Part shown: positions 15,933 to 55,298 of the stretch, piece after piece | Layout: the number at the start of each line of letters is the position of its first letter | How positions within the stretch are numbered: position 1 is the stretch's first letter | DNA from: Atopobium fossor DSM 15642 | GTDB lineage: Bacteria > Actinomycetota > Coriobacteriia > Coriobacteriales > Atopobiaceae | DNA: 64,000 nt | Direction of reading: 5' to 3' | NCBI RefSeq assembly: GCF_000483125.1 | Contig: NZ_KI519553.1 | Coordinates: 124,001-188,000, forward strand | Translations under genes and position numbers: made by a program | Notes under the pieces: generated by a model | Database searches by the model: none | What the model was told of the DNA's origin: nothing | What the model saw: only the letters and a program-made list of their open reading frames with translations

Positions 15933-16316
15933 CTATAGACGCTCAAGAACTACTACGGTGTTTACGTATTTATCTTCAAAAGAAGCAGAAACATACAGGC
16001 TATAGCTATCATTTGTAATTGCCTGTGCAACTTCATGCATAGAACCCAATAAAGCAACAGAAGGACGGCCTAACTCATCGGTTGCATATTCAATTTCGTT
16101 GAATTTAGCATCATTGGGCGATATGCGCAGGGCTTTAAAGACAGACTCTTTCATGCTAAAACGTATAGCAAAACTAACCAAAGGGGAGTCACTTGTAAGA
16201 GAGTCTGTTATTTCTCGTTCAGTAAAGCTGCGTTTAAAAAAGGGATCAGACCATGCACCATTTAAATGTGCGAGCCGATTGAGAGCCAAAATATCTGTTC
16301 CTATACCAACAATCAC
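15933..16316 (-). CDS. acpS: Holo-[acyl-carrier-protein] synthase
   Basis: A 127-residue group I phosphopantetheinyl transferase, which moves 4'-phosphopantetheine from CoA to a serine of acyl carrier proteins. GIGTDILALNRL supplies the Mg-binding Asp8, and RFSMKESVFKAL (about residues 50-61) supplies the conserved Glu and Lys. GTG start with AAAGGAT upstream; the TetR gene stops 3 bases before, so both are one transcript. It sits opposite a locus with its own acyl carrier protein at 21592. Whether this is the housekeeping AcpS or a dedicated enzyme for that carrier is open, but co-location with a regulator and a carrier suggests a dedicated role. Confidence 0.92.
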   Translation of the reverse strand: MIVGIGTDILALNRLAHLNGAWSDPFFKRSFTEREITDSLTSDSPLVSFAIRFSMKESVFKALRISPNDAKFNEIEYATDELGRPSVALLGSMHEVAQAITNDSYSLYVSASFEDKYVNTVVVLERL

Positions 16317-16319
16317 AAG

Positions 16320-16976
16320 TTAATCCTTTTTTGAGTTTTGGCTTGAGTCTCGATTAGTTATGACGCCACTTACAAAATCAGCACCAAAATATCCGAGGGC
16401 ATTACCGCCTACTCGCATAGAATTTATGATGACACTTAAAGCATCTCTTGTAAGTGTAGTTTTCTTATTAAGAAGATAGTCCTTAATAAGCAGTAAATGT
16501 GTCATAGTCATGGCCTCATTAAACCCATCACGTAAGTCGTCGTTGGGCATATGATCCATATCCATAAGCATATTTACATGACGCTTAATAGATCTGTAAA
16601 ACTTTTCCTCAAAATAAGGATCTCCATGAGGTCCTAACATAGCCTGTAGAGAAGCGCGGTGAGCATCGCAACAATCAAACCACTCATTAAATCCTATTGG
16701 AGGCTGCAACTTAAATTTATCTGGATGGTAATCGTGCACCAATCCGGCATCAATTTTACTTATTGCAGTAATGTCTACCTGGCTAAATGAAGATAAAATT
16801 GCATCTTCAATAGCTTGGATAACTTCAAAAATGTCATCAAAGTAATTATAAAAGGAACTGCGAGAGATGCCGGCTGCTTGGCATAGCTGCATAACAGTAA
16901 TCTTGTCAAACCTATTCTCTTTTAGTAAATCAATAAAGGTAAACACTATAGTGTCACGTATTTTTTGCTTGGCCAT
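16320..16976 (-). CDS. TetR-family regulator
   Basis: A 218-residue protein with an N-terminal TetR helix-turn-helix (IVFTFIDLLKENRFDKITVMQ, then QAAGISRSSFYNYFDDIFEVI). The C-terminal ligand domain of ~150 residues is variable. GAAGGAAA precedes the ATG. It is co-transcribed with acpS and divergent from the MFS carrier/hydrolase/ACP/kinase genes, so it is the natural regulator of both arms. TTGGACA dyads in the shared intergenic region are the probable operator. The ligand is perhaps the compound carried by the neighbouring transporters. Confidence 0.88.
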   Translation of the reverse strand: MAKQKIRDTIVFTFIDLLKENRFDKITVMQLCQAAGISRSSFYNYFDDIFEVIQAIEDAILSSFSQVDITAISKIDAGLVHDYHPDKFKLQPPIGFNEWFDCCDAHRASLQAMLGPHGDPYFEEKFYRSIKRHVNMLMDMDHMPNDDLRDGFNEAMTMTHLLLIKDYLLNKKTTLTRDALSVIINSMRVGGNALGYFGADFVSGVITNRDSSQNSKKD

Positions 16977-17053
16977 AGGTTTCCTTCGTCATCTCTTATA
17001 CCAAGTCTATTATATGAATTTATAGTCATATTTTGGACACTCTTATTCAACTA

Positions 17054-17068
17054 TGTCCAATTTGGACA
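17054..17068. promoter_or_regulatory. TGTCCAA/TTGGACA dyad in divergent region (candidate TetR operator)
   Basis: Perfect 7-bp arms TGTCCAA (17054-17060) and TTGGACA (17062-17068) around one T. A further half-site, TTTTGGACAC, occurs at 17031-17040. The dyad lies between the TetR-acpS and MFS transcripts. Length and symmetry suit a TetR dimer; binding is inferred. Confidence 0.55.
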
Positions 17069-17154
17069 CTTTGTTGCCTTTGTGTGCAGGACTTACGCAT
17101 AAGCCGCTACTAGAGTTGATGTTGCAAAAGCTATTGGCTTGAAAGGCGGCAATA

Positions 17155-18441
17155 ATGAGTGATACTTTGCAAAGTTCTAAGCTGCATGTATTGCGCGCTT
17201 GGCCTTTATTGGCTTTCTCGGTGTTGTGTTACTTCATCACGTCTTCGGTGGCAAGTTCTATGAACATTGCTTCCACTATTATTGGCGACGCCCGTGGCTG
17301 GGATCCTGTAGTTCTTACTTCTATGATTTCTGTAGCCAGCATTGGAAATGTAATTTTAGGATTTGTTGCTGGCCGTATATGCGTTAAGCATTCTCCCAAA
17401 ACCCTTTGTTTCATTTGGGGAGCTTTGTATGTTTTAGGGCTTGCTGCTATGGGAACCAGCAAAGCATTTTCTCTCTTTTTGATTGCCATGATTGTGGCCA
17501 ATGCGACTGCTTCTGCATGGGGCTACAACACGGTGCCCGTATTGCTTACAAATTGGTTCCCCATGCGCAAGGGTACTGTGCAAGGCTTGGTTTCCATGGG
17601 TATTCCTTTGGGTGCTGGCTTTGCAGCAATGGTCTACAACTTTGGTTTTAAAACCTGGGGTGTAGACGGTGCATTTATTCCCTTTGTTATTATCGCTGCT
17701 GTAACATTAGTGCTTCTTGCTTTTGGTATCTCGGATACTCCAGAACAGCGTGGTCTTACGCCAGATACGATGGAGTATTGTAAGACCTCTAGCGCACACG
17801 AAGCACAAGCAGCGGGTCAGGGTTTTGAGCCTTCAAGTCAAAAGGCAATAGAGCTAATTAAGAATCCTCGTTTTATGGTTCTTTCTATTATCTTAGGCTT
17901 TCAACTTTTATATGCTGGTGGTCTTATGGTGCAGATTGTGCCGCGCCTATTTGAGCTGGGCTACTCCATGGATGAAGCTGTGGCAGATATGCTTATTTCT
18001 GCAGGATTTGCTTGTGTGGGTAGTGTAGTGTGCGGTGTGATTGGCGATAAGTTTGGTTCTCGTACAGGCGTTATTCTCACATTTATTCTGGGCATCGTTG
18101 GTGTTCTCTGTAACTTGTTGGGCAATCACGTGGCTGTAATTGCAAGCCTTGCAATTATTGGCATTGTTACTGGTAGTGCAGATAACTGGCCAGTAAATAT
18201 TTGTGCAGAGTATTACGGTCGCGATGGCTTTGCAAATACTTTTGGCATCATGCTCCCCGTTATTCAAATTGTTGGTGCATTTGGTCCTATGTTTTTTGCT
18301 CAAATTGCTGGGATTTCTGGCACCTATGCACTTTCTTACATAGGTGGTGCCGTGCTTATGGGCATTGGTCTTGCTGTTTTTATTCTTCTCACCAAAGATG
18401 GCATGTTGGACAAATCAAACAGCGCTTTAAAGGATGAATGA
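17155..18441 (+). CDS. MFS transporter (first of three in the acyl locus)
   Basis: A 428-residue, twelve-helix major facilitator. The loop between helices 2 and 3 carries GRICVKHSPKTLC; TNWFPMRKGTVQGLVSMGIPLGAG after helix 4 is characteristic of OFA-like carboxylate carriers seen in Coriobacteriia. First gene of the plus-strand acyl locus, 178 bases from the divergent TetR gene. Probably imports or exchanges a small organic anion or ester that the downstream hydrolase uses. Substrate is inferred from context only. Confidence 0.85.
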   Translation: MSDTLQSSKLHVLRAWPLLAFSVLCYFITSSVASSMNIASTIIGDARGWDPVVLTSMISVASIGNVILGFVAGRICVKHSPKTLCFIWGALYVLGLAAMGTSKAFSLFLIAMIVANATASAWGYNTVPVLLTNWFPMRKGTVQGLVSMGIPLGAGFAAMVYNFGFKTWGVDGAFIPFVIIAAVTLVLLAFGISDTPEQRGLTPDTMEYCKTSSAHEAQAAGQGFEPSSQKAIELIKNPRFMVLSIILGFQLLYAGGLMVQIVPRLFELGYSMDEAVADMLISAGFACVGSVVCGVIGDKFGSRTGVILTFILGIVGVLCNLLGNHVAVIASLAIIGIVTGSADNWPVNICAEYYGRDGFANTFGIMLPVIQIVGAFGPMFFAQIAGISGTYALSYIGGAVLMGIGLAVFILLTKDGMLDKSNSALKDE

Positions 18442-18567
18442 CTCAAAAGAATATGGCAGATAAATGCTTCAGACAAAACAGGTAAATGTCTGTAGTTTAC
18501 AGCAAGTATTACAAGGGGATTTGATCGCAAAAGCGGTCTGAATATCGTTAGAAAGAAGAGGCAAAAC

Positions 18568-19758
18568 ATGATTAAGAACAACCTCAAAACCTTGGTTGGC
18601 GTGTATAGTTGCGCGCTTTCCTTAATGGCTTTGATTGTCCCAGTTCCTGTTTTGGCAGGTATTGCCCAGGCGTTTCCTGGAACACCCATTACCTCCATTC
18701 AGTTAGTTGTTACCCTTCCAAGCTTGATTGCTATTCCAGTTGGTATTTTGGTTTCCAAACTGGCCTCAAGAGTATATAAAAAATATACTGCCTTGTTCTT
18801 TACTGCGTTCTATATTTTTGCAGGCACCATGCCTATTTATCTGCACGGTAGCATTACCGAACTGTTGGTATCTGCTGCTTTAGTAGGTGTTGCACTGGGT
18901 GGTCTACAAAATGCAATGACTACTATTATCCCTGATTATTTTGAAGGGGAGTCTCGTGGTGCAGTTTTGGGCTTGCTTTCCACGTTTGTTTGCTTAGGTG
19001 GCTTCATTTATACCGCCGCTGCAACTACCTTTGGTGCTCAGGATTGGACTCACGCTTTTTATGCATATTTCATCGTAGGTATTTTCTTTATTCTTGAGCT
19101 TATCTGTCTTCCTAAAGGTAAACTGGAGCCCAAGGCCACCAAGAATGAACATGTTACAGTTCCTTCTCAGGTAATTGTTCTATGCATCTTTATGTTTTTG
19201 CTGTACACCTTCTGCCAGCTCTTTAACTCTAATGAGGCATTGCTGGTAGCAGAGCGTGGCTTAGGTGCTACTGCGGAGGCAGGAATGGCGTCTTCTGCTT
19301 ACACCATTTCTGGTATTGTTGCTGGTCTTATTGTTGCTCCTCTCATTAAGGCATTTAAGAAGCATTCTCCAACAGCCACTTTTGTTTGTGCCTTTGCTGG
19401 TTTGGCCTGCTATGCACTTGCCCAGAATATTATGATGCTCTGTATTGCTGGCTTCTTTATTGGCCTTGCCTATCAGACCTTTACTCCCTTTGGTGGCATG
19501 GGTGCTGCAAACTTCTCTGGTGCTATGGGTATGGCATTTAATATGGCACTTTGCAACGCAGCAGGTTCTTTGGGACAGGCTCTTTCTCCTTTTACCACAT
19601 CTTTCTTGGGCGGACTTGTAGGCGGTTCTATTACCAACATGATTTGGATTGGTGTTGTTGCAATGGGAATTTTAAGCATTGCCGCCTATGTGTACTTTGG
19701 CAAAAACGATATTACCAAGTCTCCTACTGCAGAGTCCGCGTCTGTAGTCGAGGCATAA
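18568..19758 (+). CDS. MFS transporter (second of three)
   Basis: A 396-residue major facilitator with about twelve helices; the first half shows VTLPSLIAIPVGILVSKLASR at helix 2 and the loop that follows it. GAAGAGG precedes the ATG. The 126-base gap to the previous carrier contains no clear terminator, so the locus is probably one long transcript. It is only distantly similar to the carrier before it, so this is not a recent tandem duplication. Two different carriers in front of one hydrolase suggest separate import and product export, or two related substrates. Confidence 0.85.
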   Translation: MIKNNLKTLVGVYSCALSLMALIVPVPVLAGIAQAFPGTPITSIQLVVTLPSLIAIPVGILVSKLASRVYKKYTALFFTAFYIFAGTMPIYLHGSITELLVSAALVGVALGGLQNAMTTIIPDYFEGESRGAVLGLLSTFVCLGGFIYTAAATTFGAQDWTHAFYAYFIVGIFFILELICLPKGKLEPKATKNEHVTVPSQVIVLCIFMFLLYTFCQLFNSNEALLVAERGLGATAEAGMASSAYTISGIVAGLIVAPLIKAFKKHSPTATFVCAFAGLACYALAQNIMMLCIAGFFIGLAYQTFTPFGGMGAANFSGAMGMAFNMALCNAAGSLGQALSPFTTSFLGGLVGGSITNMIWIGVVAMGILSIAAYVYFGKNDITKSPTAESASVVEA

Positions 19759-19805
19759 GTTGACCAAATAGTTATTCAGGCATCGTTTAGATAAGAGGTT
19801 CTAAT

Positions 19806-21545
19806 ATGGCACGTGAACTTGTTACAAAGACTGTTGAATGCAATGGCCATCCTACGGATATTTTAATGCGCCAAATGCTCATTCCCTGTTCAAAAGAGGA
19901 GTTTGATGCAATGACGCCAGAAGAGCGCGAAGAGCACAAGGTTTTGACTCCTCTTAATAATCGTGTGTATGAGCCAGAACCAGGCATTATTTGCATGCAA
20001 GATGTGGCTGTAGAGATGCGCGACGGTGTAAAGATTTACGTTGACATTTATAAGCCTAAGGATATTCCTGTAGTACCTCTGATTGTCTCTTGGTCTTTCT
20101 ATGGTAAGCGTCCTTTTGATGGACAGTCTGACTGGCAGATTATGGGTGTTCCACCCCAAACTGTCTCTAATATGTCTAAGTTTGAAAGCCCTGATCCTGG
20201 TTACTGGTGCCGTCACGGCTATGCAGTAGCAAATGTTGATCCTCGTGGTGTAGGACACTCTGAGGGAGACTTTGTACAGTTTGGCACCCAGGAGGGTAAG
20301 GACGGCTACGACTTTATTGAGTGGGCAGCCCAGCAAGCATGGTGTAATGGTCATGTTGGTTTGTCTGGCAACTCTTGTGTGGCAATGACTCAGTGGCGTA
20401 TTGCTTCTCAGCAACCACCACATCTTTCTTGTATTGCCCCTTGGGAGGGAACAAGCGATATGTATCGTGAGTCTCTCTATGAAGGTGGTATTCCTGCTCA
20501 CACCTTTGTTGGTATGGTGGTAAAGGAGGCTGTTGGTCCCAACTATATTGATGATACGGCTGCAAATGCCGAGAAGTACCCCTTCATTGATTGTGATTAC
20601 TGGAAAGATAAAGATCCCATCTGGAAGAACATCACTTGTCCGGTATACACCACTGTGTGTTGGAATCACTTCCACTTACGCGGCTCCATGCAGGCATTTC
20701 GCAAGATTAAATCTCGCAAGAAGTGGATTCGCTGCCATCGTAACTTTGAATGGCCTGATGCTTACTCCAACAAAAACTTACAGGATCTTGAACTCTTCTT
20801 TGCTCGCTATCTGAAAGACGAGCGCAATGGTTGGGAGCTTACTCCTACAGTACGTCTTGAGGTACAAGATGCCTATGAATATAACTATCAGGAGGATCGA
20901 CCCGAGACGAGTTTTCCGCTCAAGCGTACACAGTATCAAAAGCTCTATTTGGATGCTTCTGATCTGTCTATGAAGAATGCGCCTGTAGATAATCAGGCTA
21001 TGGCTGCATATCAAAGTGAGGATGGTGAAGTATGTTTTGACTACACCTTCTCAGAGGATACTGAGCTTACAGGCTATATGAAGCTCCATTTGTGGGTAGC
21101 AGCAGAAGAATATAATGATGCAGACTTATTTGTAAACATTCAAAAACTCTCTACTACGGGTGAGTGGCTGCCCATTACGTTGTTTGGCGAGAATCATCCT
21201 GGAGCATGGGGCAAACTTCGTGTTTCTCGCCGTAAGCTTGACGAAAAACTCTCGACTGATTTTCAGCCTGTTCAGGCACATACAGTTTCTGAGAAGCTCG
21301 AGCCTGGTCAGATAGTTCCTGTGGATATTGAAATTTGGCCTACCAGTCGTTTTTGGCACAAGGGTCAGCAGATTCGTGTACAGATTTCTGGCCGCTATAT
21401 CCGTGAGGATTGGTTTGAGCCTCTAATGTGGGATACGGATAATAAGGGACGCCATCTTATTTATACCGGCGGCGAGCACGATTCCTTCCTGCAAATTCCT
21501 GTTATTCCTCCTCGCTATCAGGATGGCGACTACATCTATCGTTAG
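19806..21545 (+). CDS. CocE/NonD-family serine hydrolase
   Basis: A 579-residue enzyme, full length for the family. The N-terminal alpha/beta-hydrolase domain has the nucleophile block GLSGNSCVAMTQW, with Ser190 aligned to the active serine of cocaine esterase (SYLGVTQW). PRGVGHSEG and APWEGTSDMYRE are further family blocks. The C-terminal jelly-roll domain typical of X-Pro dipeptidyl peptidase/CocE proteins follows. No signal peptide, so it is cytosolic. Members hydrolyse esters, beta-lactam acyl side chains or peptides, or transfer acyl groups. Here it sits just before an acyl carrier protein, phosphotransacylase and kinase, which suggests it makes or consumes an acyl group for them. Substrate unknown. 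Confidence 0.9.
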   Translation: MARELVTKTVECNGHPTDILMRQMLIPCSKEEFDAMTPEEREEHKVLTPLNNRVYEPEPGIICMQDVAVEMRDGVKIYVDIYKPKDIPVVPLIVSWSFYGKRPFDGQSDWQIMGVPPQTVSNMSKFESPDPGYWCRHGYAVANVDPRGVGHSEGDFVQFGTQEGKDGYDFIEWAAQQAWCNGHVGLSGNSCVAMTQWRIASQQPPHLSCIAPWEGTSDMYRESLYEGGIPAHTFVGMVVKEAVGPNYIDDTAANAEKYPFIDCDYWKDKDPIWKNITCPVYTTVCWNHFHLRGSMQAFRKIKSRKKWIRCHRNFEWPDAYSNKNLQDLELFFARYLKDERNGWELTPTVRLEVQDAYEYNYQEDRPETSFPLKRTQYQKLYLDASDLSMKNAPVDNQAMAAYQSEDGEVCFDYTFSEDTELTGYMKLHLWVAAEEYNDADLFVNIQKLSTTGEWLPITLFGENHPGAWGKLRVSRRKLDEKLSTDFQPVQAHTVSEKLEPGQIVPVDIEIWPTSRFWHKGQQIRVQISGRYIREDWFEPLMWDTDNKGRHLIYTGGEHDSFLQIPVIPPRYQDGDYIYR

Positions 21546-21591
21546 GTTTATTTAATGCAGCAGTATGAGCTGCAATATTAAGGAGTTCATC

Positions 21592-21831
21592 ATGAATGAA
21601 GAGATTTTTACCAAGCTTGCTAACCGTTGTGCCTATATCTGGGGTGTAGATGTTTCCGAGATTACTCCCGATACTACATTTGCGGAGCACAATACCAAGA
21701 GTGCCCAGATTTCTCAGATGACTACCTATTTAGAGGATGAGTTTGACTGTGAGGTTCCTTACATGCAGTTTAAGCGTAACGTCACGGTGGGAGAGGCAGC
21801 AGACTTTGTTGCTGACCTTCTGGATGAGTAA
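21592..21831 (+). CDS. Stand-alone acyl carrier protein with KSA attachment site
   Basis: A 79-residue acyl carrier protein: TTFAEHNTKSAQISQMTTYL then EDEFDCEVP and TVGEAADFVADLL align over the whole fold. Ser37 is at the phosphopantetheine position, but the usual Asp-Ser-Leu is Lys-Ser-Ala, so this is not the fatty-acid carrier. The ATG at 21592 has AAGGAG; a longer frame to 21565 lacks one. It lies 46 bases after the hydrolase and 14 bases before the phosphotransacylase, so it is in the same transcript. It should be activated by the AcpS encoded divergently. Role as an acyl shuttle between hydrolase and phosphotransacylase is inference. Confidence 0.88.
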   Translation: MNEEIFTKLANRCAYIWGVDVSEITPDTTFAEHNTKSAQISQMTTYLEDEFDCEVPYMQFKRNVTVGEAADFVADLLDE

Positions 21832-21845
21832 ATACTGGGTGGAAT

Positions 21846-22844
21846 ATGAACGAGTTTTTGCAATCCATGGTGGAGCGCGCAGCACAAGCTCCTAAACGCG
21901 TATGCTTTCCCGAGTCTTATAACGTAGATATTATTACATGTGCTGCAGCGGTAGTTGAATGTGGTATGGGTACTCCTGTAATGATTGGCTCTAAAGAACA
22001 AATCGAGCAGCTTGCACAGGAGTCTGGCGTAAGTACAGTAGGCTTTGATTATTTTGACAACACAAGTGATGACCAGCGTGAATCTCTTGCTGTTATGTAT
22101 GAAGAGTCAGGAAAGACGGATTACAGCCATAAGGCAGTTGTGCGCAAATCCAAAGATCCCGTTAATTGCGGTATGTTCCTATTGTCTTTAGGTAAAGTAG
22201 ACTGTGTTGCTGCGGGTAAGGATTACTCTACAGGTGATGTGGTTTTCTCGGCTATGAGCTTTGTGGGTCTTGCAGATGGCATTGAGTCTCCTTCCAGCCT
22301 AGGAATCGCAGATATACCTGGTTTTGAGGGACCACAGAGCTCCATGTTGGCGCTTGCAGATTGTGCCATTACTGCACAACCTGATGCCAGTGATTTGGCT
22401 GGCATTGCCATTGCTTCTGCAGACACAGTTCGCAATCTTATGGGTTGGGAGCCTCGTGTAGCCTTACTGGCTTTTTCGACTAAAGGTTCTGCAGAGCATG
22501 AGACCATTGATGTGATTCGTCAGGCTAAAGAGCGAGTGCATGAACTACGTCCCGATATTGCCTGCGATGGTGAGCTACAGTTCGATGCTGCAATTATCCC
22601 CGCTGTTGCTGCTCATAAGGTTAAGCATGATAGTCCTGTTGCGGGCAAAGCTAACGTTTTGGTTTTTCCTAACCTGCATGCAGGTAATATTGGCGTAAAA
22701 ATGGTTCAGATTTTTGGTCACGCCAATGCATATGGCCCTGTATTGCAGGGTTTTAAATTGCCTGTTTGTGACTTCTCCCGAAGCGCTCCTGTGGAAGAGA
22801 TGCTGGGTAATGTTGCCATGCTTATTGTGCGAGCAGGGGAGTAA
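21846..22844 (+). CDS. Phosphate acyltransferase (Pta/Ptb family)
   Basis: A 332-residue phosphotransacylase. Family blocks AFSTKGSAEHE, GELQFDAAI and VFPNLHAGNIGVKMVQIFG are all present and the length suits Pta or Ptb without the extra N-terminal domain. These enzymes swap acyl groups between CoA (or, here perhaps, a phosphopantetheinyl carrier) and phosphate. Followed after 2 bases by a butyrate-kinase homologue, so it surely supplies or uses that kinase's acyl phosphate. The upstream gene encodes an acyl carrier protein, which raises the possibility that the acyl donor is acyl-ACP, not acyl-CoA. Chain-length preference cannot be read. Confidence 0.88.
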   Translation: MNEFLQSMVERAAQAPKRVCFPESYNVDIITCAAAVVECGMGTPVMIGSKEQIEQLAQESGVSTVGFDYFDNTSDDQRESLAVMYEESGKTDYSHKAVVRKSKDPVNCGMFLLSLGKVDCVAAGKDYSTGDVVFSAMSFVGLADGIESPSSLGIADIPGFEGPQSSMLALADCAITAQPDASDLAGIAIASADTVRNLMGWEPRVALLAFSTKGSAEHETIDVIRQAKERVHELRPDIACDGELQFDAAIIPAVAAHKVKHDSPVAGKANVLVFPNLHAGNIGVKMVQIFGHANAYGPVLQGFKLPVCDFSRSAPVEEMLGNVAMLIVRAGE

Positions 22845-22846
22845 TT

Positions 22847-23968
22847 ATGACAGATTCTAAGAAGTGGCGCGTGCTGGTAATTAATCCTGGATCGACATCA
22901 ACCAAGCTTGGTTTGTTTGAGGGTGGTGCAGCAATATTTACCAAGTCCATTGATCATAATGCTTCCAAGTTGGCTGAATTTGAGACCATTAGTGATCAAA
23001 TGCCCTATAGACGTGACATGATTTTGTCTGCACTTGTCGAGAATAACCAAAAGCTTGAAGACATTGATGCTTTTGTTGGGCGTGGAGGTGGCTTACTTCC
23101 TTTGGAAGGTGGCACCTATGTGGTTGATGACACTATTTTAGACCATGCGTATCGTGGGGCTAATGGTGTCCAGCATCCTGCTCAGCTAGGCAGTCAGCTT
23201 GCTCATGCTTTTGCACAACAGGCAGGTAATAAGCCTTGCTATGTAGTTAATCCTCCTGATACGGACGAGTTGTGTGATAGTGCGCGCATGACGGGTATTC
23301 GTGGTGTGTATCGCCATGTGCACTTACACGCACTTAATCTTAAAGAGACGGCTATTCGTCACGCAGTAAGTATGGATAAACAATATGAGGACTGTAATTT
23401 TATAGTGTGCCATATAGGCGGAGGCATTAGCATTTCTGCTCATCAGCATGGTCGCATGATTGACGGCAATGATATTGTGGGCGGCGAAGGTCCTATGACT
23501 CCAACTCGTTGTGGTTCGATGCCTGTGAGTGAGGTGTTGTCTCTTATTGATAGTGGATTGTCTACGGCAGACGTACGCAAGTTAACTCTTAAATCCGGTG
23601 GCTTTGTAAATCTGCTTGGCACAAGTGATGCGCGTGAGGTTACTGCACGTGCCGAGAAGGGCGATAAGGTCGCAGCTCGTGTATGGGCAGCTATGACATA
23701 CCAAATTTGTAAGTGGATTGGTGCTATGGCTGTTGTTTTAAACGGTCAGGTTGATGGTATTTTGCTGGGCGGCGGTATGGTTCATGATAAAGGACTGGTG
23801 CAGGACATTACTCAAACCTGCTCGTGGATTGCCCCAGTAACTGCCTATCCTGGTGAATTTGAGCTTGAGGCTATGGCCGCTGGTGCCAATCGTGTTCTTA
23901 ATAAAGAAGAAAAACCTAAGGTATATACCGGTGTCCCCGTATTTACGAGTTTTGCAGATGAGCAGTAA
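22847..23968 (+). CDS. Butyrate-kinase-family acyl kinase
   Basis: A 373-residue ASKHA-fold kinase. The phosphate-1 loop LVINPGSTSTKLGLF, FVGRGGGLLPLEGGTY, VVNPPDTDELCDSARMTG, HALNLKE and CHIGGGISISAH match butyrate/branched-chain acid kinases rather than acetate kinase (which lacks the GRGG block). It converts acyl phosphate plus ADP to acid plus ATP, or the reverse. Starts 2 bases after the phosphotransacylase stop. The usual ptb-buk pair makes butyrate from butyryl-CoA, but no butyryl-CoA-forming genes are in the window, and here an acyl carrier protein and hydrolase precede it. Confidence 0.9.
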   Translation: MTDSKKWRVLVINPGSTSTKLGLFEGGAAIFTKSIDHNASKLAEFETISDQMPYRRDMILSALVENNQKLEDIDAFVGRGGGLLPLEGGTYVVDDTILDHAYRGANGVQHPAQLGSQLAHAFAQQAGNKPCYVVNPPDTDELCDSARMTGIRGVYRHVHLHALNLKETAIRHAVSMDKQYEDCNFIVCHIGGGISISAHQHGRMIDGNDIVGGEGPMTPTRCGSMPVSEVLSLIDSGLSTADVRKLTLKSGGFVNLLGTSDAREVTARAEKGDKVAARVWAAMTYQICKWIGAMAVVLNGQVDGILLGGGMVHDKGLVQDITQTCSWIAPVTAYPGEFELEAMAAGANRVLNKEEKPKVYTGVPVFTSFADEQ

Positions 23969-24016
23969 TTTCCAAAATATCCGGTAGCACCATCAAAATC
24001 GTGGAGAGGGTTAGCA

Positions 24017-25285
24017 TTGCAAGTAAGTAGTAATCAGTACAACCGATGGTTTGTTTTAGCGGCATCGTGTGCTATAAACCTTTGTATTGGTTCGATTTAT
24101 GCATGGAGTGTGTTTGCTCTTCCTATGCAAGAACATCTATCTCATATTGCAGGAACTAACATTGGAAGTCTTGCAATTGTCTTTACGCTTGCAAATGCTG
24201 TTGGTCCTATCACAATGATTTCTGGTGGTGCTATAACCAAAAAAATTGGCGTACGTAATGTGGTGCGCATTGGTGGGTTGCTGTTTTGCGTGGGTATGAT
24301 TTTGTCGGGCTTTACTAAGAGTCTGCCTGAACTGCTACTAACATATGGCTTAGGTGTAGGTCTGGGCGTAGGTATGGTGTATGGCGCTACCGTAAGCAAC
24401 ACTGTAAAGTTTTTTCCAGATAAGCGTGGCTTAGCAGGTGGTATTACTACAGCATTTTATGGTTTGAGCTCGGTACTAATTCCTGTGATTGCTAATGCAC
24501 TTATTAATAACTTTAGTATTGTTGAGGCTTTTTGGATGCTGGGTATAGCTATGCTGCTGCTCATTATGGGCGCTTCATTTGCAGTAGCGAGCTGTCCAGA
24601 TGGGTATGCACCTACTGGGTGGACGAAAAAGGAGATCCAGGTACGGGACATTGCCACACAAAATGCTGTTCAGGTTAGTGTAGATAAAACTTGGCGAGAA
24701 ATGCTGTCTGATCCAATTTTTTATATCATGATTGCAATGCTTTTGTGCGGGGCATTTTCTGGATTGATGATTACTTCTCAGGCTTCAGCAATTGCACAGC
24801 GTATGGTGCAAATGGATACTGTGCTCGCAGCTTTGATTGTTTCTGTCTTAGCTTTGTTTAATACGGCTGGACGCATTGTTTCTGGTGTGCTTTCTGATCG
24901 CCTTGGCATTATCCGAACGTTGCGTTTGATGTTTGTGTTACTTATTGTGGGTATGGCGTTGCTACTGTTGTCTGCACGGATGGGTGCCATAGTATTTATC
25001 ATTGCCGTTTGTGTGGTTGGATTTGTGTTTGGCTCTGTTATGGGTATTTATCCGGGGTTTACTGCTGCACAATTTGGCAATACGAATAACTCTGTTAATT
25101 ACGGGATTATGTTTATTGGATTTGCGACCGCCGGATTTTTTGGTCCTACCGCTATGAATATCCTGTTCAATAATACAGGTTCGTATATTCCCGCCTTTGC
25201 GGTTGCTGCAACTTTAGGTGTGCTGGGTGTTGTACTTTCATTTTTGTATGAAAGGGCAACGAAAGTGCAACATGTGAGTGAATAG
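24017..25285 (+). CDS. OFA-family MFS transporter (third of three)
   Basis: A 422-residue twelve-helix carrier of the oxalate/formate antiporter family: NRWFVLAASCAINLCIGSIYAWSVF at helix 1 and FFPDKRGLAGGITTAFYGLSSV after helix 4 are the typical signatures. Translation likely begins at the TTG at 24017, with GAGAGGG upstream. Last gene of the acyl locus, with a strong terminator 45 bases after the stop. OFA carriers exchange small carboxylates, so it could export the acid released by the kinase in exchange for substrate. Specificity is not visible. Confidence 0.87.
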   Translation: MQVSSNQYNRWFVLAASCAINLCIGSIYAWSVFALPMQEHLSHIAGTNIGSLAIVFTLANAVGPITMISGGAITKKIGVRNVVRIGGLLFCVGMILSGFTKSLPELLLTYGLGVGLGVGMVYGATVSNTVKFFPDKRGLAGGITTAFYGLSSVLIPVIANALINNFSIVEAFWMLGIAMLLLIMGASFAVASCPDGYAPTGWTKKEIQVRDIATQNAVQVSVDKTWREMLSDPIFYIMIAMLLCGAFSGLMITSQASAIAQRMVQMDTVLAALIVSVLALFNTAGRIVSGVLSDRLGIIRTLRLMFVLLIVGMALLLLSARMGAIVFIIAVCVVGFVFGSVMGIYPGFTAAQFGNTNNSVNYGIMFIGFATAGFFGPTAMNILFNNTGSYIPAFAVAATLGVLGVVLSFLYERATKVQHVSE

Positions 25286-25329: not shown

Positions 25330-25368
25330 AAGGATCCTATAACCATTTGGGTTGTAGGATCCTTTTTG
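25330..25368 (+). terminator. Strong factor-independent terminator closing the acyl locus
   Basis: A 15-bp stem (25330-25344 with 25350-25364, one G-T pair) around a 5-base loop, ending in a run of T. It follows the OFA carrier stop by 45 bases and separates it from the convergent flavoprotein gene. Confidence 0.9.
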
Positions 25369-28094: not shown

Positions 28095-29594
28095 ATGTCC
28101 TTAGCACTTGGAATTGACGTCGGAACGTCATCTGTAAAAGTTTCTGCAGTAGATATATCGGGCGTAATCGCAGCAGAAGTTTCCGTTTCATATCACATTG
28201 AGGAACCTCGTTCGGGTTGGAAGCAAATCAACCCAGAAGTTTGGTGGGATGCAACATGCAGTGCTTTGAAACAGCTTTCTAAAAAATGCAACCTGTCCTT
28301 GGTTTCCTGTATAGGAGTAACGGGGCAAATGCACACACCTGTTTTACTGGATAAAACAGGGCATCCCTCATATGATTCAATTATGTGGAATGATTTGCGT
28401 ACTAAGGATTTGGTCTGTGATGCAAAACAAGCAATGCATGATGCTGGAGAATACAACATTGCTAAAATTCTTTCGACGGGATCACCTGCATTAGCTCTGT
28501 TTTGGTTAAAACAGCATAATCTTGAGATTTACAAAAACACTGCCCTAGTCTTTTCTGTTCCTGATTGGATTGTCTATAAATTAACCGGCGTAAAGGGAAC
28601 TGATATTAGTTTTGCATCGACATCTTCATTATATAGTATCGAGAAAAATAGCTGGTCACAGGCTGCATTAGATTATTTTGGTATATCGCAAAAGATGCTT
28701 CCAGTCGTTGAGGGATCTGCAAGCATTACGGGTACATTAAACAACGTGACTGTTGTCTCTTTAGGCTTAGCAAAAGGAATTCCTGTCATTCGTGGCACAG
28801 GAGATAATCCTGCATCTGCTATTTCTGCTGGATGCTTAGATAATTATAGCGGCATAAATAAAAGCAAGATTTCAATTCCCGTTATTTCATTGGGGACTTC
28901 GGGTGTGTTGATGTATTCGCATTCAGGAATATATGCACCTAAGGTTGGCAAAACGGTATTGTTTTCTGCAGATGGCATACAATTGGAAAGTCTTATTCAG
29001 CTCTCTATACAGTCATGTGGTAATGATATTGATTGGATTGTCACACAAATTCTTGAGCAAGATAGTTTTTCATTTGAAGATGCATCTGTTGAGGATATTA
29101 ACTATGACATGCGCGATTTGCTGTTTTTCCCGCATCTTAATGGTGAAAAAACCCTTTTTGTTGCACCTAATTTGCGTGGCAGTTTTTTGGGTCTTGATCT
29201 TTCAACAACACGCTCTGAACTTTACCGGGCTGTTATGGAAGGAATTTCCTTTGGATTTAGGCAGATGATGGATGCAGTTAATGGTTCAGATGAATGGCAT
29301 GAGTTGGCTGTTGTAGGAGGAGGTTCTAAAAGCAAACTTTGGCTAGAGATTTTATCAAATGTATTGGATAAGTCCATTTATTGTTTGAGCAACGTGAGTG
29401 CTGGGCAGGGAAGTGCTCTGTTAGCATTAGATTCTATACAAGAGACAAATCGCTTATCGTCAAGCAGTCAAAACGAATCATTCATCTTAAGAAGAATTGA
29501 TCCACAACGTCCTATATGTGACGCATATCATAAGAAATATTGTCAATATCTACGCATAAAGTCAGCAATAGATACCGTTTACAGCAATAATTAA
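28095..29594 (+). CDS. xylB: FGGY carbohydrate kinase, xylulokinase-like
   Basis: A 499-residue FGGY kinase. The N-terminal phosphate loop is LGIDVGTSSVK; GVTGQMHTPVLLD and MWNDLRT are xylulokinase blocks; RGTGDNPASAISAG and SLGTSGVL form the hinge/adenosine region; AVVGGGSKSKLWLEILSNVL closes the family pattern. It probably phosphorylates D-xylulose or a related ketose. TAAGGAG precedes the ATG. It stands 146 bases before a glucitol-type PTS operon on the same strand, so it may be its first gene. A kinase together with a phosphorylating PTS is unexpected unless they handle different intermediates. The symbol is by best resemblance. Confidence 0.85.
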   Translation: MSLALGIDVGTSSVKVSAVDISGVIAAEVSVSYHIEEPRSGWKQINPEVWWDATCSALKQLSKKCNLSLVSCIGVTGQMHTPVLLDKTGHPSYDSIMWNDLRTKDLVCDAKQAMHDAGEYNIAKILSTGSPALALFWLKQHNLEIYKNTALVFSVPDWIVYKLTGVKGTDISFASTSSLYSIEKNSWSQAALDYFGISQKMLPVVEGSASITGTLNNVTVVSLGLAKGIPVIRGTGDNPASAISAGCLDNYSGINKSKISIPVISLGTSGVLMYSHSGIYAPKVGKTVLFSADGIQLESLIQLSIQSCGNDIDWIVTQILEQDSFSFEDASVEDINYDMRDLLFFPHLNGEKTLFVAPNLRGSFLGLDLSTTRSELYRAVMEGISFGFRQMMDAVNGSDEWHELAVVGGGSKSKLWLEILSNVLDKSIYCLSNVSAGQGSALLALDSIQETNRLSSSSQNESFILRRIDPQRPICDAYHKKYCQYLRIKSAIDTVYSNN

Positions 29595-29740
29595 GCCGTT
29601 CACCCTGAGCTTTTTCTTGGATTGCATATAGGTGATACTCTATTCATAGGGATATAGACGACTATAGACAACTAAAGATGTTTAGGGGGAAGTTAAACTG
29701 TACTGAATGGTAAGTTACGTCTAGTTCATAGGAGAATGTA

Positions 29741-30289
29741 ATGGAAGCGGTAAACAACTTTTTAATCTTCCTTGCAGAAGGCTTTACAGGGCTTTTTAAT
29801 GCAGCGGGTGCTCAGTTTACATCCTTTGTAACAGGCATGATTCCCATGCTTATCTGCTTAATTCTTACGGTTAAGGCCATTATTCAGCTTATAGGTGAAG
29901 ATCGCGTATATGGCTTTATGAAGAAATGTACTAAATATGCAGTTCTTCGCTACACCATCATTCCTTTTTTGTGTTGTTTCTTTCTTACAAACCCAATGGC
30001 GTATACCTTCGGCGTATTTGTAGACGAGGAATATAAGCCAGCTTTTTATGATGCGGTTGTATCTATGATGCATCCTATTACGGGTCTTTTCCCTCATGCT
30101 AACTCCTCCGAGCTGTTTGTATGGCTGGGTATTACTGCTGGTTATGAGGCTCTAGGTAAGAGTTCTGCGCCCTTGGCACTCCGCTTTCTCTTTGTTGGTC
30201 TTGCTGTGTGTCTCTTCAAAGGTATTGTTACCGAGAAGCTCTACAAGTATATGGTTGCCCGCAAAGAAGCTAAGCTTCAGAACAACTAG
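29741..30289 (+). CDS. srlA: PTS glucitol/sorbitol-family IIC component
   Basis: A 182-residue membrane protein of the SrlA/GutA family, the EIIC part of the glucitol PTS. Several hydrophobic segments and AEGFTGLFNAAGAQFTSFV, ANSSELFVWLGITAGYEALG and ALRFLFVGLAVCLFKGIVTE match the family. GGAGAA precedes the ATG. With the next gene (IIBC) it forms the split membrane channel of this unusual PTS family. 18 bases separate it from srlE. Confidence 0.9.
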   Translation: MEAVNNFLIFLAEGFTGLFNAAGAQFTSFVTGMIPMLICLILTVKAIIQLIGEDRVYGFMKKCTKYAVLRYTIIPFLCCFFLTNPMAYTFGVFVDEEYKPAFYDAVVSMMHPITGLFPHANSSELFVWLGITAGYEALGKSSAPLALRFLFVGLAVCLFKGIVTEKLYKYMVARKEAKLQNN

Positions 30290-30307
30290 TGGGAAAGGAT
30301 ATTTATT

Positions 30308-31324
30308 ATGAGCGAGTTTAAAAGTGTTAAGGTTTCCCACGGCACCAATGGTTGGGGTGGACCTCTAATTATCACTCCCACAGACGAGAAACCCTACGTA
30401 ATGAGTGTTACCCTTGGCGGTATCCATCCCGTAGCACAAAAGATTGCTGAACTTTCTGGTGCTCAGGTCTGCGATCAGTTTAAAAATCCTATCGATACCA
30501 GCATGGCAGCCATTGCAGTTATTGATTGTGCTGGTGTGGCTCGGTGTGGTACCTATCCCAAAATGGGTATTCCAACTGCCAATGTAAAGCCTGGTTCTCC
30601 CTCTGGTCCTCTTGCAACGTTTATTACTGAGGATATTTTTACTTCCGATGTACATGTAGAAAACATTGCATTAGCCGATGGTTCAGAGGTTGTTGTTGAG
30701 ACTGTCCCTGTTCAGACAGAAGAGAGTGTCAACAAGGAAAATGTGCATGCAAAGATTGCAGATGCACGTGCGGAGAATGCTGCTAAGCGTGGTACGAGCT
30801 TCATGGACATTGTTTCTAAGATTGGTACCGGTGTTGGTCGCTTTATTAGCATTATTTATCAGGCTGCACGTGATACCGTAAATGACGTAATCAAAAACAT
30901 TCTTCCTTTTATGGCGTTCGTTTCTGTTTTGATTGGCATCATTAATTATACTGGTTTTGCAAATGTTCTTGCTAATGTACTCACTCCTCTTGCAGGTAGT
31001 TTGCCTGGCATGATTGCCATTGGTCTATTCTGTTCTGTTCCATTTCTTTCTCCACTTATTTGTCCTGGTGCCATTATTGCTTCTGTGCTTTCCGTACTTA
31101 TTGGAAATCAGATTGCTGCTGGTACCATTCCTGCAAACTTCGCGCTCCCTGGTTTTTTTGCAGTAAACTGCCAAGTGGGTTCTGACTTTGCTCCTGTAGG
31201 TATGACTCTTATGGAAGCAAAGCCCGAGACAATTGAGATTGGTTACCCAGCATTTCTCTTTGGTAAGCTTATTACGAGTCCAGTTCAGATTGTCTTTGCA
31301 TATCTCATGTCATTCGGTCTCTAA
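30308..31324 (+). CDS. srlE: PTS glucitol/sorbitol-family IIBC component
   Basis: A 338-residue SrlE homologue. The N-terminal IIB domain begins with the family block GTNGWGGPLIITP and holds the phosphate-carrying cysteine in DCAGVARCGTYP (Cys80 is the likely site; Cys74 is also in the block). A linker follows (~120-165), then the membrane domain with IGLFCSVPFLSPLICPGAIIA and FFAVNCQVGSDFAPVG. GAAAGGA precedes the ATG. It takes phosphate from the IIA encoded at 31736 and phosphorylates an incoming polyol or sugar. Substrate need not be sorbitol: no sorbitol-6-phosphate dehydrogenase is present. Confidence 0.92.
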   Translation: MSEFKSVKVSHGTNGWGGPLIITPTDEKPYVMSVTLGGIHPVAQKIAELSGAQVCDQFKNPIDTSMAAIAVIDCAGVARCGTYPKMGIPTANVKPGSPSGPLATFITEDIFTSDVHVENIALADGSEVVVETVPVQTEESVNKENVHAKIADARAENAAKRGTSFMDIVSKIGTGVGRFISIIYQAARDTVNDVIKNILPFMAFVSVLIGIINYTGFANVLANVLTPLAGSLPGMIAIGLFCSVPFLSPLICPGAIIASVLSVLIGNQIAAGTIPANFALPGFFAVNCQVGSDFAPVGMTLMEAKPETIEIGYPAFLFGKLITSPVQIVFAYLMSFGL

Positions 31325-31327
31325 AAA

Positions 31328-31720
31328 ATGTGGTTCGCTATGGATTTTGGTAAGGGTATTGCAACGTTAATCTTTATTCTTCTCGTATGGTTAGCAGGAA
31401 CTATAAGCCAATACCTGTACTGGAAGAAAGTACGTGTTCTCATTCATGAATATGCTAAAAATCATGAAGGCTATCTGGGAACAGGCATGTGTAAGATTAG
31501 CTTTAGTAGAAAAGTGTTTGTGCTTGTCCTTACCGATTTTGATTTTAAGATTACCGGTTGTTATGAGCTTGCAAGTTTGTCTCTCAATCCGTCCTTTTCA
31601 CCCATTAGAGAGGTGATAGGGTTTACTGTAGACAGCGCAATAGAAAAACTTCCGAACCCTAAGTATGCAGATGCATTCAAGCAGGCATTTCATGCAATCA
31701 AGTCATCTAAGAAAAGTTAA
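31328..31720 (+). CDS. gutM: GutM-like glucitol operon protein
   Basis: A 130-residue protein with one N-terminal transmembrane helix (about residues 10-28) and a soluble tail containing HEGYLGTGMCKISFSRKVFVLVLTD. It matches the GutM/SrlM family, described in E. coli as an activator of the glucitol operon although it is membrane-anchored. It lies 3 bases after srlE and 15 before the IIA gene, the usual gene order. ATG start with the srlE stop directly in front; no separate strong ribosome binding site, so coupling is likely. Confidence 0.8.
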   Translation: MWFAMDFGKGIATLIFILLVWLAGTISQYLYWKKVRVLIHEYAKNHEGYLGTGMCKISFSRKVFVLVLTDFDFKITGCYELASLSLNPSFSPIREVIGFTVDSAIEKLPNPKYADAFKQAFHAIKSSKKS

Positions 31721-31735
31721 TTTTTGGAGTTTAAG

Positions 31736-32086
31736 GTGTATTTAGTCACAATTACTGAGCTCGGTGAGACCGTGGAGCCTTTGCTAGACGAGAAAATGCT
31801 TGTTTTATTTGGACCAACCGTCCCCGAGGAACTTAAGGAAATTTGTGCAGTTCATAATGGAGAACCAACCGAACAGACCCTTTTAGCCATTGGAGGAACT
31901 ATTGCTATTGGTGACGCTTCGTACAAAATTTCTGAAGTTGGCGATGCCGCTAATATTAATTTTACGGGGCTTGGGCACCTGACCATTCTATTTGGTAGTA
32001 CTGCCGAGCTGCTTCCTGGTTCTGTACGTGTAACTTCAGACAGTACACCAGCTCTTTCTGTAGGAACTACGATTGTGTTTTCATAA
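31736..32086 (+). CDS. srlB: PTS glucitol/sorbitol-family IIA component
   Basis: A 116-residue EIIA of the glucitol family. The phospho-accepting histidine is His81 in GLGHLTILF. The GTG at 31736 has TGGAG at good distance; a TTG at 31724 would overlap the binding site. It relays phosphate from HPr to Cys80 of SrlE. Its presence completes the IIA-IIB-IIC set of this locus. Confidence 0.88.
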   Translation: MYLVTITELGETVEPLLDEKMLVLFGPTVPEELKEICAVHNGEPTEQTLLAIGGTIAIGDASYKISEVGDAANINFTGLGHLTILFGSTAELLPGSVRVTSDSTPALSVGTTIVFS

Positions 32087-33789: not shown

Positions 33790-35292
33790 TTAGGCTTGTG
33801 CACCAAACAAGCTGTTTTCAAAGCTATGAATGGCCTCGGCAAGAGGTTTATAGGTAGTCATATAGAACATCTTAAGCTTTTTAGACCTCTCCTTATTGGG
33901 TATATATTCAACGGTTTGAAGATTGTTGTAGACTTCAATGCCATTACGTTGTGCAGTGGTCATAATAGATCCACATGCTACCGCTTCGCTAAGACTGCAG
34001 CCTACAATTTTCTTATCTAGAAGATCAGCTTTTAGTTGCATCCATAAAGGATTTTGAAGAGCAGGTCCAATAACTTTAATAACTTCATAGTTGGAAAGTG
34101 CCATATGTGAATACAAGCCATAAAGCTCACATGCAACGCCAAGATGTACGGCAAAAAGCATATTGATACTCTGAGTGTTCTCGGTAAGGCCATAAAATAC
34201 ACCTCTTGCTTCACGTGAGCGCTGGGGAGGACCGCTACCACGTAGGTGTGGGATAAAAATTTCATTAGGGAGTATGAAGTTTTTATCTATGTATGTGTCA
34301 AAAAGCTGGGATAGTATGTTCTGGTTAAATGTCTCTAAAGAGATATTAAGCACTTCAAGAGCCCATTCAAATGAAAAGCCAGCAGTAGGCAATGATGCAT
34401 ACAGGGAGTAGGTGTTATCTTGAACGTACATCCCATTAGTAATTTGGCACTCATATTGATGCATGCCAATTTTTGGGTTATTTACTACGGCCAAAATGCC
34501 TTCTGAAGTGCCTGTGGAATTGAGTAACTCTTTGTTTGTTTGAAGCTGACAAGCAACCGAACCAGACATGTGATCATGTCCTGTTACTGCGACTTGACAC
34601 TTTTCAGAGATGCCTGTGGTTTGCGCTACTGAACTCTTAATAAAGCCTCTAAAAGTTCCACTTTTAACAAGAGGAGGAAAAAGTGTATGAGGTAGCTCAA
34701 AATAATCTAGAATTTCGCTGGATATCTTAAGGGTATTGATATCAAGAACGGCAGTACGCGACGCTAAAGTAACATCCTGACCGACAGTATCGCATAGAAC
34801 CCAGGCGATAAAATCAGCCATAGGAAGCCAGGTTTTATTGGTAAGTGAAATGCCGTATTTACGAAGCCAAAGAATTTTAAAAAGTGCTGAGTTTGCGTGT
34901 ACAGGAATTCCTGTAATGCGATAGAGCCATTGCTCTTTGTTGGATTGTATAAGCTCGTTTACAAACTCACTGCCACGCTTATCAAACCAGCAAATTGAGG
35001 TATCTGAATAGGTGTTATTACCATCAATAAGAACACCAGACTCACCAATACTTGCAACCGAGATAAAAGCAATGGTTTCTTGGTTTTGAAGGGCATACTT
35101 TGCGCAATTAGCAAGCTGTATAAACAGCAGATTGAGCAGTTGAGGGATGTCGTAATCAACATTGGTGCCAGCAACAAGTTTAGGGCTTGCAAATTTGCCA
35201 ATATATACAGGCTCACAATTGGGCAAGCTGCAAAGCACAACCTTGCTGTTGGTTGTACCAATATCTATACCAATGGCATACGACACAACCAA
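33790..35292 (-). CDS. FGGY-family carbohydrate kinase
   Basis: A 500-residue FGGY kinase with phosphate loop GIDIGTTNSKVVL, SICWFDKRG, the hinge block VTGHDHMSG and STGTSEG. It differs from xylulokinase (no QMHG/LWND block) and is nearer to the fuculokinase-like uncharacterised branch. Start is a TTG at 35292 with AAAGGGA upstream; a GTG two codons in is an alternative. It follows the galactitol-type IIC gene by 86 bases. In classical galactitol catabolism the kinase step is PfkA/LacC-like, so an FGGY kinase here points to a different ketose or polyol. Substrate unknown. Confidence 0.85.
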   Translation of the reverse strand: MVVSYAIGIDIGTTNSKVVLCSLPNCEPVYIGKFASPKLVAGTNVDYDIPQLLNLLFIQLANCAKYALQNQETIAFISVASIGESGVLIDGNNTYSDTSICWFDKRGSEFVNELIQSNKEQWLYRITGIPVHANSALFKILWLRKYGISLTNKTWLPMADFIAWVLCDTVGQDVTLASRTAVLDINTLKISSEILDYFELPHTLFPPLVKSGTFRGFIKSSVAQTTGISEKCQVAVTGHDHMSGSVACQLQTNKELLNSTGTSEGILAVVNNPKIGMHQYECQITNGMYVQDNTYSLYASLPTAGFSFEWALEVLNISLETFNQNILSQLFDTYIDKNFILPNEIFIPHLRGSGPPQRSREARGVFYGLTENTQSINMLFAVHLGVACELYGLYSHMALSNYEVIKVIGPALQNPLWMQLKADLLDKKIVGCSLSEAVACGSIMTTAQRNGIEVYNNLQTVEYIPNKERSKKLKMFYMTTYKPLAEAIHSFENSLFGAQA

Positions 35293-35378
35293 ATCATCCC
35301 TTTCTTTTTCTAAAAGGGGGCGCTGGGTTTTTGTTATACACCAGCGCCCGAATCATTACCTACCTAGTGTAGTGCACA

Positions 35379-36758
35379 TTAGTTTGCTGCTACTGTCTCG
35401 TCCTCGAGGTACGCATGTTTGTGGGTTACCTTCCAGGTAAAAGCAACAAGAACAATGGTTACAATAGCAAGAATGATGGCGATAAAGTTACCAGAGAACA
35501 CCTGGTAAATGAGGTAACGGAATGGGTTACCACCATCAAGAAATGCAGTTACCAAACTGCCGCTAGTAGCGGTATCGTACCCAACATTGTTAGCAAGTTG
35601 TGTGATAAGGGGGGCAGCTGCAGAGCAGATGAGTAAATCACCAATGAGGCAGGGGATAGCAATAATAACAGCACGAATAATGTTTTGATCGCAAGCAACA
35701 ACAATCATAGAACAGAATACAGCCATGTTAGACAGGTCTGCTACTGGTAAGGTTTGGTTGCCTGGGATGATGAATGCCAACATAATAGCAATGGGGGTCA
35801 ATAGCAGGCCAGTGGAGATAATAGCAGGATTACCAATTGCAACTGCAATATCAAGACCGATATAAAAATCTGCGCGGTCTGGGAAGCGCTTTGCCATAAA
35901 CTCCTTAACACCATCTGAGATAGGAATGAGACCATCCATAAGAATACGAACCATTCTGGGTAGGATGTACATAACTGCGCCAAGGTTAATAGCAAGACCA
36001 AGGAGATTTTTTACATCGTAGCCAGCAAGAAGGCCAAGCAAAATACCAAGCATAAAACCAATCATCATGGGCTCACCAAAGATACCAAGACGTTTTTGAA
36101 TGGTTTCAGGGTCAGCATGAAGCCTATTAATACCAGGAATTTTATCCAATACCCAGTTGCCCAAAAGGCCAATGGGGAAGAAAACGGCACTAGAAAGTGT
36201 TGGTAGAGAAATGCCAGGAAGGTTGCAATACTTTTGAGCAAGAGGTGCACACCAATCACCAATTTTAAGGATAACTACTGCAGCAATAGCAGCACCAACA
36301 AGACCGAGAAAGAAGTTACCCGTTGCAACATATACTAACGATCCAGCAAATGCAAAGTGCCAGTAGTTCCAGATATCAACATCAATAGTTTTAGTCCATT
36401 TAAAGGCAAGCATAACAAGATTGATAATTAGCGTAAGCACAATTGCAAATGGTGCGATAGGGGAGCCCCATGTGATGGCTGATAAAGGAGCCCATCCAAG
36501 ATCTACGGCTGGAAGATTGAGACCAGTACGAACAACGATTGCTTGTGCAGCAGGACCTACCTGAGCGCCCATAAGACTAAAGATGGTAAAAACACCAACA
36601 AAACCAACGCCCACTACCAAAGCAGATCTGAAAGCTTTAGCAGGCTTAATACGAAAAACTAACGCTAGAACAAAAATAACAATTGGCAGCATTACGGTTG
36701 CACCAAAACCAAGAACGTACTGCACTGCATTAAGCAGTGGAGTAACCATGCCTTCCAT
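35379..36758 (-). CDS. gatC: PTS galactitol-family IIC component
   Basis: A 459-residue membrane protein of the GatC family with about ten to twelve hydrophobic segments. Blocks such as LDLGWAPLSAITWGSPIAPF, IPGINRLHADPETIQKRLGI and GEPMMIGFMLGILLGLLAGYD are typical. GGGAGG precedes the ATG. It works with the IIB at 36841. The family also carries arabitol, ribitol or xylitol in some Gram-positives, so galactitol is only one option. No IIA gene of this family is in the window. Confidence 0.9.
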   Translation of the reverse strand: MEGMVTPLLNAVQYVLGFGATVMLPIVIFVLALVFRIKPAKAFRSALVVGVGFVGVFTIFSLMGAQVGPAAQAIVVRTGLNLPAVDLGWAPLSAITWGSPIAPFAIVLTLIINLVMLAFKWTKTIDVDIWNYWHFAFAGSLVYVATGNFFLGLVGAAIAAVVILKIGDWCAPLAQKYCNLPGISLPTLSSAVFFPIGLLGNWVLDKIPGINRLHADPETIQKRLGIFGEPMMIGFMLGILLGLLAGYDVKNLLGLAINLGAVMYILPRMVRILMDGLIPISDGVKEFMAKRFPDRADFYIGLDIAVAIGNPAIISTGLLLTPIAIMLAFIIPGNQTLPVADLSNMAVFCSMIVVACDQNIIRAVIIAIPCLIGDLLICSAAAPLITQLANNVGYDTATSGSLVTAFLDGGNPFRYLIYQVFSGNFIAIILAIVTIVLVAFTWKVTHKHAYLEDETVAAN

Positions 36759-38032: not shown

Positions 38033-38052
38033 AGTGTAGTGTCCTCTCCGTA

Positions 38053-55286: not shown

Positions 55287-55298
55287 GGTTTCCACCGC

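Follow-up and report, generated by a model that had tools for sequence, protein, structure and literature searches.

In the textbook view of how anaerobes conserve energy, acyl phosphate and adenosine triphosphate (ATP) are formed from a thioester of coenzyme A (CoA). The Pta-AckA and Ptb-Buk systems each pair a phosphotransacylase with an acyl kinase, and the two enzymes link thioester, acyl phosphate, acid and ATP by reversible steps. The FakAB-PlsX-AcpB system of Enterococcus and other Firmicutes likewise has a kinase, a phosphate transacylase and a dedicated acyl carrier protein (ACP) that are joined by acyl phosphate (PMC10146087, PMC6509188). Here we describe a locus of Atopobium fossor DSM 15642 in which a phosphotransacylase and an acyl kinase follow a CocE/NonD-type hydrolase and a dedicated ACP; it lies in a stretch of 64,000 nt (assembly GCF_000483125.1, contig NZ_KI519553.1, positions 124,001 to 188,000), the whole of which was analysed and is called the window. 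On balance, we favour the reading that this is a catabolic module in which the energy of an acyl group is conserved independently of CoA, by way of acyl-ACP, acyl phosphate and ATP. The points for this reading are the gene set, its conservation, the duplicated carrier set of the genome, the residue losses of the phosphotransacylase and the joint evolution of hydrolase and ACP; also counted for it are CoA-type phosphotransacylases on plasmids that have no ACP, two other front ends that have their own ACP, phosphotransacylase and kinase, and the monocarboxylate score of the last carrier.

As in Pta-AckA and Ptb-Buk, the module kinase (Buk) is a full member of its family, here that of butyrate kinase, and the module phosphotransacylase (Pta) keeps the catalytic Asp/Ser/Arg. 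Unlike in Ptb-Buk, Buk is partnered by a Pta-family enzyme, this enzyme lacks Arg133, and the set is extended by an ACP, an AcpS and an acyl-handling front end. Compared with FakAB-PlsX-AcpB, the transacylase matches PTA_PTB only and not PlsX, the kinase belongs to the Acetate_kinase/butyrate kinase family, a family of short-chain kinases, and not to FakA/FakB, and the locus contains a hydrolase, major facilitator superfamily (MFS) carriers and its own AcpS, with no phospholipid genes. The module hydrolase shares fold, PepX_C domain and Ser nucleophile with CocE/NonD hydrolases such as cocaine esterase and SACOL2612 (3ib3/3iii); however, an ACP is the regular neighbour in one clade, and the Asp of cocaine esterase after strand 7 is not evident. 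Finally, a pair similar to the thiolase and OB-fold (DUF35) proteins PhlC/PhlB or Ltp2/ChsH2 occurs in sister cassettes of relatives, where it is followed by another ACP (ACP2) and often by Pta and Buk, whereas the window has no such pair.

Layout of the locus

An earlier note on this DNA had named the genes of the module; all were confirmed as open reading frames at the positions it gave, and their family assignments were confirmed by Pfam and NCBIfam profile matches. The features are as follows.

15933..16316, minus strand: AcpS-type phosphopantetheinyl transferase (PF01648 (ACPS) 39 bits, cut-off 25; TIGR00556 64 bits, cut-off 45)
16320..16976, minus strand: TetR-type regulator, divergent (TetR_N 21 bits and TetR_C_8 22.6 bits, both slightly under the curated Pfam cut-offs)
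17054..17068, no strand: candidate TetR operator, a palindrome TGTCCAAtTTGGACA with perfect arms of 7 nt around a 1-nt centre, within the divergent promoter region
17155..18441, plus strand: MFS carrier 1, MFS1 (MFS_1 117 bits)
18568..19758, plus strand: MFS carrier 2, MFS2 (MFS_1 87 bits)
19806..21545, plus strand: CocE/NonD-type alpha/beta hydrolase (CocE), proposed acyl-ACP-forming enzyme (TIGR00976 217 bits, cut-off 66)
21565..21831, plus strand: dedicated acyl carrier protein, ACP (PP-binding 29 bits, cut-off 21)
21846..22844, plus strand: phosphotransacylase, Pta, of an ACP-linked clade (PTA_PTB 277 bits)
22847..23968, plus strand: butyrate-kinase-family acyl kinase, Buk (TIGR02707 378 bits, cut-off 289; PDB relative 1saz)
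24017..25285, plus strand: OFA/lactate-type monocarboxylate MFS carrier, MFS3 (NF049980 391 bits, cut-off 320)
25330..25364, plus strand: intrinsic-terminator-like hairpin (15 pairs, T-rich tail)

The spacers of 14 bases between ACP and Pta and of 2 bases between Pta and Buk are as reported before, and the strong terminator noted at the module end corresponds to the hairpin listed above. Terminator-like sites overall are no commoner than in shuffled sequences, and the stem at 25330-25364 is far longer than the rest. The half-site of palindrome TGTCCAAtTTGGACA recurs at 17032 as the direct repeat TTTGGACACT, and the palindrome may serve as operator for the TetR protein. Horizontal import, as judged by GC content, was rejected, the module (43.8%) not differing from the window (43.6%).

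The phosphotransacylase and position 133

The module enzyme, previously labelled Pta/Ptb, belongs to the Pta family (262 bits to NF007233) and is not a Ptb (75 bits to phosphate butyryltransferase). The partner of Buk is a Pta rather than a Ptb, a point that had been missed. In the following, TRANSACYLASE residue numbering follows the M. thermophila enzyme (Mt-Pta). In the window Pta, Arg28, Arg87 and Arg133 of Mt-Pta are replaced by Asp, Gly and Phe, and Asp307-Ser309-Arg310 are retained. Across the module Ptas, the catalytic residues are kept almost without exception (Ser309 in 45/45, Arg310 in 45/45 and Asp307 in 44/45), Arg133 is kept in 0/45, with Met, Leu, Ile, Phe, Val or Thr in its place, and Arg28 and Arg87 are also lost in nearly all. 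In comparison, the residue at position 133 is Arg in 26, His in 1 and Lys in 1 of 28 CoA-type Ptas, which include housekeeping copies from module-bearing genomes. Some rows of the Pta alignments are near-duplicates. A single branch with support 98 divides the module Ptas from the CoA-type Ptas. In the P. gingivalis enzyme (PgPta), the residues corresponding to Arg87 and Arg133 bind acetyl-CoA at its 3'- and beta-phosphates, and those corresponding to 307, 309 and 310 are essential (PMC6461089).

Three Ptbs that adjoin Buk on plasmids, with no ACP beside them, were used as control. They have no equivalents of Arg28 and Arg87, and Arg or Lys stands at or next to the 133 site. Loss of Arg28 and Arg87 was dropped as a diagnostic mark, since Ptbs, the usual partners of Buk, lack both too; position 133 is the informative one, because the plasmid Ptbs lack Arg28 and Arg87 yet keep a basic residue there.

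Second carrier set, ACP and AcpS

Paralogues were counted in the 1.65-Mb assembly that holds the window. This genome has 2 PP-binding proteins, 2 AcpS, 2 Ptas and an AckA besides Buk, and one copy of each duplicated pair is in the module and the other elsewhere, the AcpS outside the module being located at G000:C1:56930. In 14 of 22 other genomes whose positions were compared, a second AcpS or other phosphopantetheinyl transferase (PPTase) lies at most about 7 kb from the ACP. The type of this module-linked PPTase varies, from AcpS-like proteins of 124-135 aa in some genomes to proteins of 215-225 aa (Sfp size) in others.

The ACP may start at ATG 21565 or at ATG 21592, of which the latter gives a length nearer to that of relatives. 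Its attachment residue, given as Ser37 in the earlier note, has that number with the start at 21592 and becomes Ser46 with the start at 21565. This Ser is invariant in 21 aligned ACPs and is preceded by Lys or Arg (Lys in the window), whereas classical ACPs have Asp-Ser; the stretch LEDE is strongly conserved among the same proteins. By curated models the module ACP is not AcpP, its best NCBIfam ACP score being 37.6 bits for a cut-off of 66, and it has the Lys-Ser site.

Conservation and co-evolution in Coriobacteriia

Among the 140 genomes of the family, 54 have relatives of the ACP, spread over 17 of its 35 genera (the more distant ACP2 included). For CocE, sampling of 398 genomes of the class gave relatives (E<1e-60) in 52, from 4 families. 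When 20-kb neighbourhoods plus the window were compared, the ACP adjoins CocE or sits a gene or two off in 29 of 38 CocE loci, in at least 3 families. Pta and Buk are usually found within the same stretch, gene order being variable, and a metagenome-assembled genome of Olsenella has the same order as the window, TetR / MFS1-MFS2-CocE-ACP-Pta-Buk-MFS3 (L001). The earlier note had made its proposal depend on conservation of gene order in relatives, and it survives this comparison of Coriobacteriia neighbourhoods. The gene set recurs across families of the class and is therefore no chance assembly. Two other genomes of the genus of the window gave no match to ACP or CocE, so the module is accessory. 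A contig search with the ACP gave one match in Mycoplasmatota, with no other module gene around it, and a plasmid search with it gave none. No description of this gene combination was found in a literature search, most subscription journals being outside its reach.

Pairwise-distance correlation was highest for CocE and ACP (r=0.93, 29 loci), followed by Pta-Buk (0.70), CocE-Pta (0.47) and ACP-Pta (0.42). These values leave shared ancestry in, yet the remaining pairs, with largely that ancestry too, score lower. Thus CocE-ACP and Pta-Buk, which exceed CocE-Pta and ACP-Pta, behave as two tight pairs, and they lie apart in some loci (L041, L043 and L044).

The predicted structure of CocE (pLDDT 89) has 3ib3/3iii (SACOL2612) as nearest fold, with TMq 0.82 to 3ib3. 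Its nucleophile Ser190 is invariant in 28 aligned sequences, as is His311, and W286-N-H288 stands after strand 7, with no Asp. In the CocE tree, ACP-linked enzymes form one clade (SH-aLRT 95), and an ACP-free CocE-TetR clade is its sister. Genes of this sister hydrolase clade (L090-L096, L102) mostly adjoin a TetR gene, with no ACP nearby. Relatives of CocE were sampled within Actinomycetota, and those from other members of the phylum had no such ACP within the flanks read, about 1.5 kb.

Sister cassettes with other front ends

A thiolase-like protein accompanies an OB-fold (DUF35-type) protein in 17 loci of relatives, nearly always with ACP2; Pta and Buk come next in many of these loci, at times together with an MFS2-type carrier. 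Relatives of MFS2 end thiolase-ACP2-Pta-Buk cassettes (cluster 16, 7 loci), and the TetR of the window falls in the same protein cluster as the TetR of thiolase-ACP2 cassettes. Moreover, 4 genomes of another family (L198-L202) have an Abhydrolase_3 enzyme, a third ACP (ACP3, with the same Lys-Ser site), Pta and Buk, and in 2 of these 4 an AcpS stands beside the set. Both ACP2 and ACP3 directly precede Pta. Acyl-handling enzymes of different kinds converge on a common ACP-Pta-Buk end. The earlier account had noticed neither these sister modules nor the loss of Arg133 in the module Pta.

Loci with the thiolase, OB-fold protein and ACP2 include L036, L040, L050, L184-L188, L193-L195 and L197, where a flavin mononucleotide (FMN) reductase and a PucR regulator are present. 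The neighbourhoods as a whole also contain FMN reductases, PucR-type regulators, an MBL-fold protein and reductases dependent on flavin adenine dinucleotide.

Proposed route and alternatives

We infer every reaction, direction and substrate of the favoured route from sequence. MFS1 and MFS2 would move the substrate, and AcpS, judged by its family, would attach phosphopantetheine to Ser37 of the ACP. Ser190 of CocE may take the acyl group from an activated substrate, such as a phenol or enol ester or a carbonyl-flanked C-C bond, and the enzyme would pass it to the ACP thiol instead of water. The module Pta would then convert acyl-S-ACP and phosphate to acyl phosphate, from which Buk would form ATP and a short carboxylate. 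This product could be exported by MFS3, which scores as a lactate-type monocarboxylate carrier and exceeds the curated cut-off of the SfMCT L-lactate transporter model (NF049980). The earlier proposal of a dedicated ACP, in place of CoA, as the carrier of the acyl group is well supported by comparison, through the conserved linkage, the second AcpS, the invariant Ser and a partner Pta without the CoA-phosphate residues; between the two directions it had left open, genomic context favours that from hydrolase through acyl-ACP and acyl phosphate to ATP, without settling it. The chances are about even for the broader proposal of CoA-free substrate-level phosphorylation in Coriobacteriia, in which several acyl-cleaving enzymes would load dedicated ACPs and an ACP-specific Pta branch would make ATP together with Buk.

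Several points weigh against this route. Simple, ordinary esters yield barely the energy that ATP formation needs, too little for the route to run easily towards ATP. An activated substrate must therefore be assumed, and an activated ester or C-C cleavage is more likely. Since CocE relatives outside the ACP clade work without a nearby ACP, the acceptor of the module hydrolase may just be water, and in this subfamily the Asp of the canonical triad is not evident after strand 7. Judged from sequence alone, the module Pta may still accept CoA: true Ptbs use CoA despite having no Arg28 and Arg87, and PgPta kept part of its activity when Arg89 or Arg135 was mutated, with losses of only 58% and 21% (PMC6461089). 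The sister pathway FakAB-PlsX runs towards acyl-ACP and is a real precedent for the opposite direction.

This opposite direction is unlikely, but less so than the other alternatives. Here a short acid would be loaded onto the ACP by Buk and Pta at the cost of ATP. An acceptor compound would then receive the acyl group from the CocE-type enzyme or, in sister cassettes, from the thiolase pair, and the MFS carriers would export the compound so modified or detoxified. We count for it the thiolase and OB-fold protein, which we take to resemble acyltransferase pairs such as PhlC/PhlB, and detoxification loci commonly contain TetR and MFS genes. In Gram-positives, FakAB and PlsX charge ACP from acid through acyl phosphate (PMC10146087), and E. 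faecalis has an auxiliary ACP for this route (PMC6509188). However, the front ends include two hydrolase subfamilies, the clusters contain reductases and PucR-type regulators that are typical of catabolism, and a monocarboxylate carrier with Pta-Buk would be the usual energy-yielding end in anaerobes.

Quite improbable is the alternative that Pta-Buk forms an ordinary CoA-dependent acyl pathway, the ACP serving the hydrolase only, or regulation only. In its favour, Pta-Buk and CocE-ACP evolve as separate pairs that lie apart in some loci, and R87/R133 mutants of CoA Ptas remain partly active (PMC6461089), but the module Ptas without exception group in a single clade that has lost the basic residue at 133, and the placement of ACP2 and ACP3 immediately before Pta in sister cassettes also speaks against it. 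A small polyketide-like or lipid-like biosynthetic cluster with the chain growing on the ACP, for which ACP, AcpS and, in relatives, a ketosynthase/thiolase-like protein could be cited, is very improbable, as condensing and reducing enzymes are both missing from the window cassette and the acyl kinase and Pta have no role in such a route except charging.

If the CoA-free catabolic route is true, an ACP in the place of CoA would be a new branch point, with the acyl group channelled outside the CoA pool, and loss of the basic residue at position 133 would be a sequence mark separating ACP-using from CoA-using phosphotransacylases. The module is widespread in a class that has numerous gut and rumen members, and it may point to a dietary or host-derived substrate not yet recognised.

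Other genes of the window

Downstream of the module, the window contains an FGGY-type sugar kinase followed by a glucitol/sorbitol-type phosphotransferase system (PTS) with EIIC, EIIBC and EIIA (28095-32086), and galactitol-type PTS genes (EIIC-GAT, PTS_IIB) at 33790-38790, where a sugar kinase, an aldolase-like protein and GntR-like regulators were recognised by eye. At 52374-57931, a 970-aa FtsX-type permease, with an ATPase and a two-component pair assigned by eye, resembles peptide-resistance ABC systems, and a 1172-aa pyruvate:ferredoxin oxidoreductase is encoded at 58266-61784.

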